50,793 nucleotides of DNA from a virus, in IMG/VR virus record IMGVR_UViG_3300034954_000142, positions 1 through 50,793 of that record. One strand, written 5' to 3'. The first letter of the stretch is position 1; every line of letters starts with the position of its first letter. The translations under genes were made by a program, and so were the position numbers. Below, one piece after another: positions 4,676 through 25,563 of this stretch. The notes beneath the pieces are model-generated. The model searched no databases and was not told the DNA's origin. It saw nothing but the letters and a program-made list of their open reading frames with translations.

Positions 4676-4734
4676 TATGCCATCATAATACGGTGGCAAA
4701 TCAAACAAAACACACAACCACAACGGAGAAATAC

Positions 4735-5658
4735 ATGTCTTTTGCAAGTCTTAAGAAAAAGTCTGGGTCTTTTGATAAACTGACTCAGCAGATTGAAAAG
4801 ATGTCTAAACCACAGGGTGCTGGTCCTGACGAGCGACTCTGGAAACCTGGTGTAGACAAGTCGGGTAACGGTTATGCCGTGATCCGTTTCCTTCCTGAGC
4901 CTGATGGTGAAGACCTTCCTTGGGCACAGGTGTGGAGCCACGCTTTCCAAGGTCCTGGCGGATGGTATATTGAAAACTCCCTCACCACACTGGGTCAAAA
5001 AGATCCTGTCGGTGAGTTGAATCGCACTCTTTGGAATAGCGGTCTTGATTCCGACAAAGAGATTGCTCGTAAGCAGAAGAGGAAACTCTCCTACTACAGC
5101 AACATCTATGTTGTGAAGGACCAACTGAATCCTCAGAATGAGGGTAAAGTATTCCTTTATAAGTATGGTAAGAAGATCCACGACAAGATCGTGTCTTCTA
5201 TGCAACCCCAGTTTGAAGACGAAGAACCTATTAACCCCTTTGATATGTGGCAAGGTGCGGACTTCCGTATCAAGATCCAAACCATTGGTGGTTACTGGAA
5301 TTATGATAAGTCTGACTTCGCAGCACCTAGCACGCTGGGTGGTTTCGATGATGAGAAACTGGAATCACTGTGGAAGTCTCAGTATTCCCTCAAGGAATTC
5401 ACTGACCCTTCTGCCTTCAAGTCTTATGAGAAATTGGAAGAGCGTTTGAATCTCGTCCTTAACAAGGGCAGGACTCAGGTCCGCACTCGTGATGAGCAAG
5501 ATGAGGATGTCTTCAACTCTCCTGACATTATGGCACCTGCCAAAGTGTCACAACCAGATCCCACTCCTAGTGGATTTGGTGCTAAGATTGAAGAGTTAAA
5601 CAAAGCAGATGATGGTCCTGACTTGGACTACTTCGCTGCCCTCGCTAACGACGACTAA
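4735..5658 (+). CDS. 32: gp32 single-stranded DNA-binding protein
   Basis: gp32 coats single-stranded DNA during replication and recombination and contacts the polymerase, helicase loader and recombinase. I chose the ATG at 4735 (MSFASLKKK) because ACGGAG precedes it at proper spacing and T4-type gp32 begins this way; an in-frame GTG at 4693 would add 14 odd residues. The basic LAST-like N-terminus (residues 1-20), the OB-fold core with GNGYAVIRFLP and aromatic patches, and the acidic C-terminal tail (DDGPDLDYFAALANDD) are all visible. The 307-aa length matches T4 (301). No cysteine is present anywhere, so the T4 zinc site is missing. Confidence 0.93.
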   Translation: MSFASLKKKSGSFDKLTQQIEKMSKPQGAGPDERLWKPGVDKSGNGYAVIRFLPEPDGEDLPWAQVWSHAFQGPGGWYIENSLTTLGQKDPVGELNRTLWNSGLDSDKEIARKQKRKLSYYSNIYVVKDQLNPQNEGKVFLYKYGKKIHDKIVSSMQPQFEDEEPINPFDMWQGADFRIKIQTIGGYWNYDKSDFAAPSTLGGFDDEKLESLWKSQYSLKEFTDPSAFKSYEKLEERLNLVLNKGRTQVRTRDEQDEDVFNSPDIMAPAKVSQPDPTPSGFGAKIEELNKADDGPDLDYFAALANDD

Positions 5659-5930
5659 TGAAAAAACTTGCCCTTGCCTCTCTGCTGCTATTGTCCGCTG
5701 CAGCACCCGCTAATGCACTAACTTGGAAGGAATTCTGGGAGCCGTTTGAGGGGCACGGGCATCACCATTCGCACCATTATTATTATGATCACCCTCCTAG
5801 GAGGCGTATGTGTGAGGTGCAGGTGACTAGACGTAGATGGGTGCCTGGCTTCTGGTTAGGTCACCATGAATATGTTGAAGGTTACTGGGAGAAACAGACA
5901 CGACTTAAGTGGAGACCCTGTAGGCACTAA
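5658..5930 (+). CDS. secreted His-rich protein with WVPGxW motif
   Basis: The 90-aa product starts with a clear signal peptide (MKK, a hydrophobic core of about 12 residues, then ANA as cleavage site near residue 20). The mature part has a histidine/tyrosine cluster (HGHHHSHHYYYDH) and the block WVPGFWLGHHEYVEGYW, which resembles WVPGxW repeats of exported bacterial proteins. Two cysteines could form a disulfide in the periplasm. A metal-binding or envelope role is inference. It overlaps the gene 32 stop by one base (TAATG), so it is co-expressed with gene 32, an odd partner for an exported protein. Confidence 0.75.
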   Translation: MKKLALASLLLLSAAAPANALTWKEFWEPFEGHGHHHSHHYYYDHPPRRRMCEVQVTRRRWVPGFWLGHHEYVEGYWEKQTRLKWRPCRH

Positions 5931-6020
5931 CCCATATATTATTTCACTTTTCGTTCCCAGAAAGGTCGAAAAAAAATTCGGGGTATTTTTTCGCCCACAG
6001 GGTTTTTCGGTATTTTTACT
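5931..6020 (+). other. 90-base intergenic gap with A/T inverted repeat
   Basis: The gap holds an inverted repeat CGAAAAAA (5967-5974) / TTTTTTCG (5986-5993) with an 11-base loop, followed by CCCACAGGG and further T runs. It could be a weak terminator or attenuator after the gene 32 unit. No convincing promoter or RNA gene was seen. Confidence 0.3.
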
Positions 6021-6221: not shown

Positions 6222-6536
6222 ATGCTCTCAACCGCTTATCGACTCCGTTTGGAGTCTATTTGCAGATGTATTGCAAATAAAGAATCTGTCCCTATTGAGG
6301 ATATGATTTGGGCAGAGAAACTTGCCAAAAGGCACACACTCGCCCGTGACTGGTTAAAACAAGCACGTCGTCAAGCGTCTCAAGACATTGAGGAGGGCAG
6401 TATGGAGGATTTTATGAATAGGATGGGTCTCGGAGACCCTGATCCATCCAATCATAGGACCACATTTGATGGTGCAGACGATATTAACGATTGGTTTAGG
6501 AGGGATAAACCAGATGACTGGCGTCAGCGTGACTAA
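6222..6536 (+). CDS. conserved cyanophage hypothetical protein (104 aa)
   Basis: The protein has a basic helical N-terminal part (residues 1-50, with IANKESVPIEDMIWAEKLAK) and an acidic C-terminal part ending GDPDPSNHRTTFDGADDINDWFRRDKPDDWRQRD. The segments GDPDPSNH and DWRQRD are, from memory, strongly conserved among T4-like cyanophages, but no function is attached. The following gene begins two bases downstream. Confidence 0.7.
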   Translation: MLSTAYRLRLESICRCIANKESVPIEDMIWAEKLAKRHTLARDWLKQARRQASQDIEEGSMEDFMNRMGLGDPDPSNHRTTFDGADDINDWFRRDKPDDWRQRD

Positions 6537-24538: not shown

Positions 24539-24892
24539 ATGGAAGGTATGTACGACACCATCTTATGTCATTATGACATTGGCGCAGGTTTCTGGAAAAG
24601 ATCACTGCAAACAAAAGATCTTGATGGATGGTTGAATACATTCTTTTTAGACCCAGTTGGTCATCTGTGGGAGATTGATTATAGTGACACTCAGGATTTC
24701 TCTGAATCGGATCCTAGAGGTTATGTGGCAAATGGTATGCATGGTAGGGTAAGACCATACTATGCTACAAAAGAGATAGAAGTATATCCAACTAAATGGG
24801 ACGCACTCTATGCACCGTTTCCTAGGATGACTTTAGTTTTTAGACAAGGTATTTTGATTAGGGTAGGCACGCCAGGACAGGTTAGGTTATGA
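24539..24892 (+). CDS. conserved hypothetical protein (117 aa)
   Basis: A beta-rich protein with MYDTILCHYDIGAGFWKRSLQTKDL and the blocks FFLDPVGHLWEIDYS and HGRVRPYY. I recall similar CHYDxGxGFW proteins in cyanophages and cyanobacteria, without known function. It starts three bases after the cupin-like gene and overlaps the next gene by ATGA. Confidence 0.6.
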   Translation: MEGMYDTILCHYDIGAGFWKRSLQTKDLDGWLNTFFLDPVGHLWEIDYSDTQDFSESDPRGYVANGMHGRVRPYYATKEIEVYPTKWDALYAPFPRMTLVFRQGILIRVGTPGQVRL

Positions 24893-25563
24893 GATTGCGT
24901 AATGCTATTTTAGCGGGTTTGATGTTTGGTTTGGCACATGGAGGTGTGCAGGCAGGAGAGGATAAGATTACTAAAGGATATAACTCCATGGATGCCATGG
25001 GTTGTATGTTACTGAGAGAATGTAAGAAAGATGTAGATGAGGTGTTTTCTCTCCTAGATATTTCTAGTCAGTACGAAAATCCAGAAAGATTCACGTTTGC
25101 GGCACAAGAGTTTAATCGACTTTTGATGACACTTAACCAGATCGGTGTAAAGGTGTTTCTTGCGGATGAGCGTTATTTTCCTATTGGACACCGTGGGGTA
25201 TATCATACTGTTAGTAATAACTTCTATCTTAATAGGAGACATATGCATGATCCTGCTGTCCTGATGCAACTTATGCGTCATGAAGGATGGCACGCTGCTC
25301 AAGACTGCATGGCAGGCACTATTGAGAATAGTATGATTGCTATTATCAAGAATGAAGAAGATGTGCCTATGATCTGGAAAGTCATGGCAGAGCGCACTTA
25401 TCCCGCACACTCTGTGCCGTGGGAAGCGGAAGCACAATGGGCAGGACGCACTGAGGGTATGACTCAGGCAGCACTAGAAGCATGTGCAACTGGCAAAATG
25501 TGGGAAATTTACCCTCCAACTCCAATGACTAATGAATGGTTAGTGGAGAATGGTTATAAATAA
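24889..25563 (+). CDS. exported HExxH zinc-metallopeptidase-like protein
   Basis: The 224-aa protein has a signal peptide (basic MRLR, hydrophobic core, VQA cleavage site at about residue 22). The helix LMRHEGWHAAQDC contains His131-Glu132-x-x-His135, the zinc site of gluzincin-type peptidases; Glu179 or Glu181 in PWEAEAQWAG could be the third ligand. It is probably exported to the periplasm or associated with virions. Possible roles are envelope remodelling or lysis (inference). Its own late promoter is not visible, and the consensus TATAAATA for the next unit overlaps its end. Confidence 0.65.
   Translation: MRLRNAILAGLMFGLAHGGVQAGEDKITKGYNSMDAMGCMLLRECKKDVDEVFSLLDISSQYENPERFTFAAQEFNRLLMTLNQIGVKVFLADERYFPIGHRGVYHTVSNNFYLNRRHMHDPAVLMQLMRHEGWHAAQDCMAGTIENSMIAIIKNEEDVPMIWKVMAERTYPAHSVPWEAEAQWAGRTEGMTQAALEACATGKMWEIYPPTPMTNEWLVENGYK
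25555..25562 (+). promoter_or_regulatory. late promoter TATAAATA before fibre genes
   Basis: A perfect T4 late consensus overlaps the stop of the exported peptidase-like gene and lies 28 bases before the GTG of the next structural gene, which places the start correctly for the tail-fibre block. Confidence 0.7.

Follow-up and report, generated by a model that had tools for sequence, protein, structure and literature searches.

A short protein with a predicted signal peptide, encoded directly after gene 32, belongs with a known but misnamed family of marine cyanophages

INTRODUCTION

A viral DNA stretch of 50,793 nucleotides (IMG/VR record IMGVR_UViG_3300034954_000142; this whole stretch is called the window below) carries, at the end of its gene 32, a 90-codon reading frame whose product looks as if it should leave the cytoplasm. 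An initial annotation had called an early or middle replication operon an odd place for an exported protein, and had proposed that the product may act on the envelope or on metals during infection. The locus thus raises the question of what such a protein could do beside a replication gene, and of the family to which it belongs. The question has a wide setting: in marine T4-like cyanophages the family adjoins a replication gene that ranks among their most conserved, and the most abundant of photosynthetic bacteria carry it in their chromosomes.

RESULTS

Position of the gene and its junction with gp32

The elements of the locus, in window coordinates, are:

4735..5658, + strand: gene for a gp32-like single-stranded DNA-binding protein, the upstream partner (phrog_224, E = 3.6e-124)
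5656..5660, + strand: TAATG, the gp32 stop overlapping the start of the next gene (read in the sequence)
5658..5930, + strand: gene for the predicted exported protein, 90 aa, a short, zipper-less relative of the PHROG 767 / T4-GC 330 family
5958..6010, + strand: conserved terminator-like element, degenerate in the window (from relatives L055 and L066 and folding z-scores)

The 90-codon reading frame, its overlap with the gp32 stop and the motifs HGHHHSHH (residues 33–40), WVPGFW (61–66) and EGYW (74–77) were all found where the initial annotation had placed them. The gp32 TAA occupies 5656–5658 and the ATG of the 90-aa gene begins at 5658, giving an overlap of one base; gp32 itself has an alternative, longer start in the same frame, a GTG at 4693. 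Upstream on the same strand lie a gp33-like gene (phrog_254), a gene for a phrog_468 protein, a 50-aa ORF and then gp32, and we infer that the run from the gp33-like gene through the 90-aa gene is a single transcript.

Viral contigs contained 229 stretches encoding a relative of the 90-aa protein. Eighty loci were kept and fetched, and 77 are readable, L032, L043 and L048 having been dropped as their gp32 or start lies outside the sequence. In all 77, the start lies within 0–2 bases of the final base of the gp32 stop; in L053 and L054 the start had been shifted manually from a TTG to the ATG that is the next codon. In 64 there is a one-base start/stop overlap, TAATG or TGATG. The geometry behind the earlier claim of coupling to gene 32 is thereby borne out. 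Translational coupling itself is plausible, because no Shine-Dalgarno-like motif lies ahead of the window's start and such a motif is found in the start region of just one of the 77 relatives.

Behind the gene, L055 and L066 carry CCCCCGA..TCGGGGG followed by a T run, which reads as a strong terminator. The stretch folds with a z-score of −3.4 in L055 and −1.2 in the window, and a consensus scan did not call the window copy (5958..6010).

Predicted anatomy of the 90-aa protein

The product can be divided into four parts:

5658..5717, + strand: predicted Sec signal peptide, residues 1–20, cleavage after ANA ([AVST]xA in relatives; A18 and A20 invariant)
5718..5747, + strand: mature N-terminus LTWKEFWEPF, predicted short helix (TWxEFWEPF conservation; structure model)
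5748..5807, + strand: variable His-rich linker, residues 31–50 (block pLDDT 51 and 59)
5808..5921, + strand: predicted β-hairpin and disulfide candidate, residues 51–88, with C52 and C88 at the base (model; Cys conservation; homology to the long-form hairpin)

Export via Sec is predicted, in agreement with the signal peptide claimed at the outset; here signal peptides were called by a heuristic rule of this analysis (n-region, h-region, AxA). Relatives were compared as 35 distinct short phage proteins, drawn from 63 of the 77 loci. All 35 have [AVST]xA immediately ahead of [LIV]TW, and both alanines of the site, A18 and A20, are invariant in an alignment of 38 sequences (A4). The predicted mature protein has 70 aa, a pI of ∼9.4, 10 His, 6 Trp and 5 Tyr. 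Its opening motif, TWxEFWEPF, is present in 35/35, a near-invariance that is partly selected, as the search patterns for relatives included WKEFWEPF; the structure model places a helix at residues 23–30 with modest confidence (mean pLDDT 65 over 21–30).

The segment that follows the linker has the pattern Cys...[WY]xPG...GY...Cys and is modelled as a hairpin with strands at 51–62 and 76–87 (block pLDDT 94–98 for residues 51–80 and 87 for 81–90), the rest of the model being weak (whole-protein mean pLDDT 73, pTM 0.35). C52 is invariant and C88 is present in at least 90% of the 38 sequences, and 34 of the 35 proteins have two Cys past residue 20, the exception apparently being L044, which is cut by a contig end. 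A C52–C88 disulfide would close the hairpin at its base. Searches of solved structures by sequence and by fold gave no usable match, and NCBIfam gave none up to E = 1 for the window protein or a host short form.

Between helix and hairpin, 5–13 His follow EFWEPF in 35/35 distinct short phage proteins, so that the description of the protein as His-rich holds for the window protein and for these relatives; it fails for the short form of phage S-SZBM1, for the short forms found in host genomes and for most members of the related long form described below. Capture of Ni, Zn or Cu in the periplasm by the linker would account for these histidines, and also for a second His-rich protein of exported type, 79 aa and unannotated, that follows gp32 in S-SSM2 (L097 3917–4156). 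However, the linker is the variable part of the protein, and the short forms of S-SZBM1 and of the hosts have the other parts without it. We consider metal binding very unlikely as the core function, and that part of the earlier proposal is not upheld.

Conservation, selection and mosaicism

A chance reading frame is ruled out by the 229 related stretches together with dN/dS ratios below 1, which range from 0.09 to 0.47 across ten window or phage gene pairs (nine of them distinct, L023 repeating L019). Two host gene pairs gave 0.28 and 0.20. The 90-aa gene is conserved and under purifying selection. Conservation outside the source phage, on which the initial annotation had staked its reading, is found in viral contigs, in phage records and in host genomes. 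Against named phages, tblastn of the 90-aa protein gave no match at E ≤ 0.01 and a weaker one to S-WAM1 alone (two records, E = 0.8), and relatives were reached via environmental contigs, gp32 and the long form. S-WAM1 and S-SZBM1 are isolates with a short form, the latter as an ORF for a predicted exported protein directly after gp32 that is unannotated in its record (L083 3150–3377). One contig filed under a Euryarchaeota MAG (L103, PAZU01000056.1) has a gp32 77% identical to the window's together with a relative of the 90-aa gene, and is probably a cyanophage contig put in the wrong genome bin.

Comparison with other loci shows that the gene is a mosaic. Its first 150 bases are identical in the window and in L019 and L023 (150/150), while the hairpin half matches at 104/123 positions and the sequence downstream of the gene is again 98% identical (197/200 in L019, 89/91 in L023). 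The situation is reversed in L004 and L020, where the first part matches at 141/150 and 124/156 and the hairpin at 121/123 and 113/124. Because the two pairs of loci diverge in opposite halves, the halves are exchanged separately. This is compatible with a recognition surface in the product, though not proof of one.

A protein that varies in this way could serve superinfection exclusion, coating or blocking an envelope component so that the DNA of a second phage is kept out. In T4, Imm and Sp (spackle) are superinfection exclusion proteins that block DNA entry of a second phage. Predicted export, coupling to a replication gene, a divergent hairpin between near-identical flanks in L019 and L023 and the carriage of a copy by some hosts all speak for such a role. 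Yet no named exclusion or defence family was matched in Pfam, NCBIfam, PADLOC or the PDB (for the PADLOC anti-phage defence profiles, 0 matches up to E = 1 in six proteins, three of them from the host cassette described below), and mosaicism is widespread among phages, with variation also in the final 300 bases of gp32. We regard superinfection exclusion as the main rival explanation, though an unlikely one.

The slot downstream of gp32

To place the gene in context, the 80 loci nearest the window's gp32 among 597 relatives were surveyed, five being too short, and the slot was defined as an ORF of at least 45 aa starting within 200 bases of the gp32 stop. Of the 75 slots, seven held the short form (TWxEFWEPF proteins) and seven the long form. 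One held a hairpin-only protein, zipper-less and lacking TWxEFWEPF, three held other exported proteins, eight an 'HPVT' protein with a single membrane pass, and 18 other ORFs, some of them doubtful. The remaining 31 had no ORF of at least 45 aa, and the function of the slot is therefore dispensable for some phages.

The signal-peptide rule was satisfied in 17 of the 75 gp32 slots, against 3 of 327 slots behind other ORFs of these loci, an odds ratio of 32 (p = 6e-11). The control was treated identically, its three matches look like out-of-frame ORFs, and it supersedes an unmatched first control (4/516 ORFs) in which start codons and ORF choice differ. By this heuristic rule, exported proteins are over-represented in the position that follows gp32. 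What had been called an odd place is thus one where exported proteins recur, among them plastocyanin (petE) in ACG-2014f (L093 957–1280). In 16 named phages, hand-picked from DNA-similarity and gp32 lists and not a random sample, the slot held the family in nine, another exported protein in two, namely ACG-2014f with its plastocyanin and S-SSM2 with its 79-aa His-rich protein, the HPVT protein in one and none in four.

The HPVT proteins are short, with a single membrane pass and the pattern HPVT..N..F.G.L...HT.AH...DVHGH, and are frequent occupants of the slot (L218, L219, L220, L227, L244, L245, L249 and L268). Elsewhere in the window, the sole other ORF of 61 that satisfies the signal-peptide rule lies at 24889–25563; its product, of 224 aa with an HEGWH motif, is possibly an exported metalloprotease and had no Pfam match at E ≤ 0.001.

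Relation to PHROG 767 and its enzyme name

A longer exported protein labelled 'cAMP phosphodiesterase' fills the slot behind gp32 in many of the named cyanophages; the protein so labelled in S-WAM1 is short. One long-form query retrieved 268 phage records at E ≤ 0.01, the S-SZBM1 short form being the weakest among the matches listed. When profiles of the short (A1) and long (A2) forms were compared with hhalign, the hairpin alone aligned (probability 97, E = 8.5e-11), and its strands are present in the models of both. The window protein itself reaches phrog_767 only at E = 0.012. Among the A1 members, two isolate proteins included, 17 of 24 match it at E ≤ 1 (best 8.8e-11), and one strongly matches another unnamed family, phrog_3309 (7.5e-15). 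Because of the window protein's own E value and the phrog_3309 match, the link to PHROG 767 rests on the relatives and on the profile comparison. In a search of predicted viral structures, the model of the window protein matched the Syn19 'cAMP phosphodiesterase' most closely (E = 0.038, probability 0.98), followed by the S-RIM50 long form (E = 0.15), both E values being weak on their own. Judged on the profile comparison, the hairpin of the window protein is homologous to that of the long form.

Most long forms read Cys-strand-[YIV]PG-PGY-strand-PC and then a glycine zipper; ACG-2014d has the zipper and both Cys but lacks PG-PGY. In nine family proteins, the Pfam family PF05433 (glycine zipper 2TM) was above cut-off in five, below it in two and unmatched in P-TIM40 and in the zipper-less S-WAM1. 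Since the C-terminal zipper is absent, the 90-aa protein is best filed, on its sequence, as a short branch related to PHROG 767 / T4-GC 330 and not as a full member. Members of both forms can carry a basic N-terminal extension of ∼30–35 aa (..PNWQH..LKPQALRQAKKRR..) ahead of the signal peptide, as in S-WAM1 (L081 921–1304), S-RIM2 (L101 1897–2421) and L196 (from about 2924).

The long form is not bound to gp32. Among 79 long-form loci in viral contigs, gp32 is nearby in 28, at a distance of 0–2 bases in nine, 72–80 bases in 12 and farther in seven; it was not found in the sequence around the other 51, of which 34 have more than 1.5 kb upstream. S-SM2 and RN05-S also have the long form away from gp32. 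In L125, where no gp32 was found, it follows a glutaredoxin-like gene and stands beside a homologue of the window ORF 6222–6536.

The name class II cAMP phosphodiesterase, given to the long form in RefSeq/GenBank, has no sequence support. No phosphodiesterase match was obtained in Pfam at E ≤ 10 for the window protein or nine family proteins. The metal motif of class II cAMP phosphodiesterases is HxHLDH (PROSITE), and HxHxDH occurs in 0 of 164 sequences (75–189 aa). A phosphodiesterase activity, for which the annotation itself speaks and nothing else, has in our estimate next to no probability. The label 'cAMP phosphodiesterase (class-II)', unsupported by sequence, stands in many PHROG 767 / T4-GC 330 records (L081–L102, 268 phage records), and our guess is that it spread by annotation transfer. 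We found no paper that pairs cyanophages with a cAMP phosphodiesterase. In the portion of the main text of Sullivan 2010 (PMC3037559) available to us, the terms 'phosphodiesterase', 'signal peptide', '330' and 'gp32' do not occur, and the accessible portions of PMC10436341 and PMC4949707 yielded nothing on the 90-aa protein. A description of the short form was not found in the literature searched either, which is not proof that there is none. The protein appears to belong, as a variant, with a known but misnamed family for which we found no published study.

Homologues in host genomes

A homologue search in cyanobacterial genomes, as the initial annotation had suggested, found both forms. In 400 genomes of the Prochlorococcus/Synechococcus family, some of them incomplete, the long-form profile matched 168 at E ≤ 1e-25 and 282 at E ≤ 1e-3, some of the weak matches in the larger set extending over nothing but the zipper. 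A search at class level matched 29 of 291 genomes, and since all 29 were already among the genomes of the family search, the host long form is confined to this family in the genomes sampled. At the 20 best-scoring host loci, an EamA-like gene lies upstream on the same strand in 17 (overlapping the long-form gene by 4 bases in four), RuvA downstream in 18 and rpsO in 14; these neighbours were told by motif, and in L278, the one locus checked with Pfam, all three (EamA, RuvA and S15) were confirmed. Three host proteins match phrog_767 at about 1e-45, and PF05433 is above cut-off in three of four host long forms. A quick tree of long forms (60 from phages, 21 from hosts), unrooted and built on few columns, required 2 label changes against 19 in shuffles, which suggests that phage and host long forms exchange rarely, whichever the direction of transfer.

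The short form is present in five of the 400 genomes, with no gp32 within the 6.5–16 kb around each copy. Four of them (L104, L111–L113) carry LTW[AK]EFWEPF and the fifth (L114) LTWDEFF. In the four, the gene is part of a cassette of 77-aa, 57-aa, short-form and 85-aa genes (L104 4534–5517; L111 7453–8438; L112 7568–8553; L113 7443–8428), the 85-aa product being predicted, on inspection of its sequence, to be exported. In L114, the 85-aa gene is the one cassette partner found; it adjoins the short form near a contig end, and about 2.6 kb away a phage-type integrase gene, identified with Pfam, lies beside a tRNA-Ser. The L111 copy is chromosomal, because it is part of a single 1.74-Mb contig, and we infer that the cassette is island-like.

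Two further explanations can be weighed against these genomes. The phage might supply an extra copy of a host protein that falls once host expression stops, as other auxiliary genes do, and so maintain the envelope or the photosynthetic lumen. Phages and the host family both commonly carry the long form, and the lumenal protein plastocyanin occupies the same slot in ACG-2014f. The window form, however, has no zipper and a different N-terminus, so it does not simply duplicate the usual host form; upkeep in this sense is doubtful, and somewhat less probable than exclusion. The second explanation is a regulator of lysis timing that acts like the T4 antiholin RI, itself an exported, periplasmic protein according to the part of PMC8385771 available to us. 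Here the analogy would be in export; no named antiholin or holin family was matched, and the related host gene stands beside EamA and RuvA and not in a lysis cassette, so that this role is more improbable still than metal capture.

DISCUSSION

The phage infects marine cyanobacteria, and because the 90-aa protein is a shortened relative, predicted to be exported, of one that its hosts make, it probably acts on the host envelope during infection; the earlier suggestion that it may act on the envelope agrees with the predicted export and the geometry of the gp32 junction. In the explanation we favour, the phage would carry a host envelope protein stripped of its anchor, which would replace its host counterpart or compete with it, a reading to which we assign a probability of roughly 45%. 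Ribosomes ending gp32 would re-start at the overlapping ATG, and the product would be exported by Sec and cleaved after ANA. The mature product is predicted to fold to a β-hairpin whose ends could be joined by C52 and C88. In the long host and phage forms, the two-helix C-terminal glycine zipper would hold the hairpin at the membrane; the window form, which has no zipper, would stay in solution in the periplasm or lumen, and its tryptophan-rich LTWKEFWEPF would serve instead as an address or docking peptide. It would then displace or compete with the host protein at an envelope partner, altering the envelope to the phage's benefit. The EamA transporter upstream of the host long form is a lead to that partner and no more.

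Counted for this explanation were the conserved architecture, purifying selection, position at the gp32 stop, hairpin homology, host homologues and slot enrichment. Counted against it were the missing match to a solved structure, the small fold that a hairpin alone represents, the 31/75 empty slots, the freedom of the long form from gp32 and the E value of 0.012 between the window protein and phrog_767. A bolder version, which we think improbable but less so than metal capture, is a two-sided contest over one envelope site, in which cyanophages would have acquired a common picocyanobacterial envelope protein and turned it, with the anchor removed and LTWKEFWEPF added as a nearly fixed address, into a soluble decoy that jams the partner of the host protein. 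Some Prochlorococcus would in turn use the form without an anchor, encoded in their island-like cassette, against the decoy or to exclude phages. Renaming the family, linking its phage and host members and naming the short branch give a concrete target for the action of cyanophages on the host envelope.

Several known systems resemble the window protein in part. Proteins of PHROG 767 / T4-GC 330 share with it a position that in many phages is immediately or shortly downstream of gp32, a signal peptide and, in most members, the Cys-[YW]xPG-PGY-Cys hairpin; the window form differs in having LTWKEFWEPF and the His linker instead of the C-terminal glycine zipper (ending GC..DGG), and has no match to PF05433. 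The chromosomal long form of the hosts likewise has a signal peptide and the hairpin (e.g. CTRNEYREEYIPGTRNDPGYVKKWEETVEVPC), but has the zipper, lacks TWKEFWEPF and sits in an EamA/RuvA neighbourhood. The Pfam family PF12779 (WXXGXW repeat) has an aromatic/glycine spacing that resembles the W-x-P-G-x-W of the 90-aa protein, although the match is below cut-off (14 bits versus 18, E = 0.055). The host short forms of L104 and L111–L113 share the signal peptide, LTW[AK]EFWEPF, the hairpin and the absence of a zipper, and differ in lacking the His linker, in having no gp32 nearby and in their cassette neighbours.
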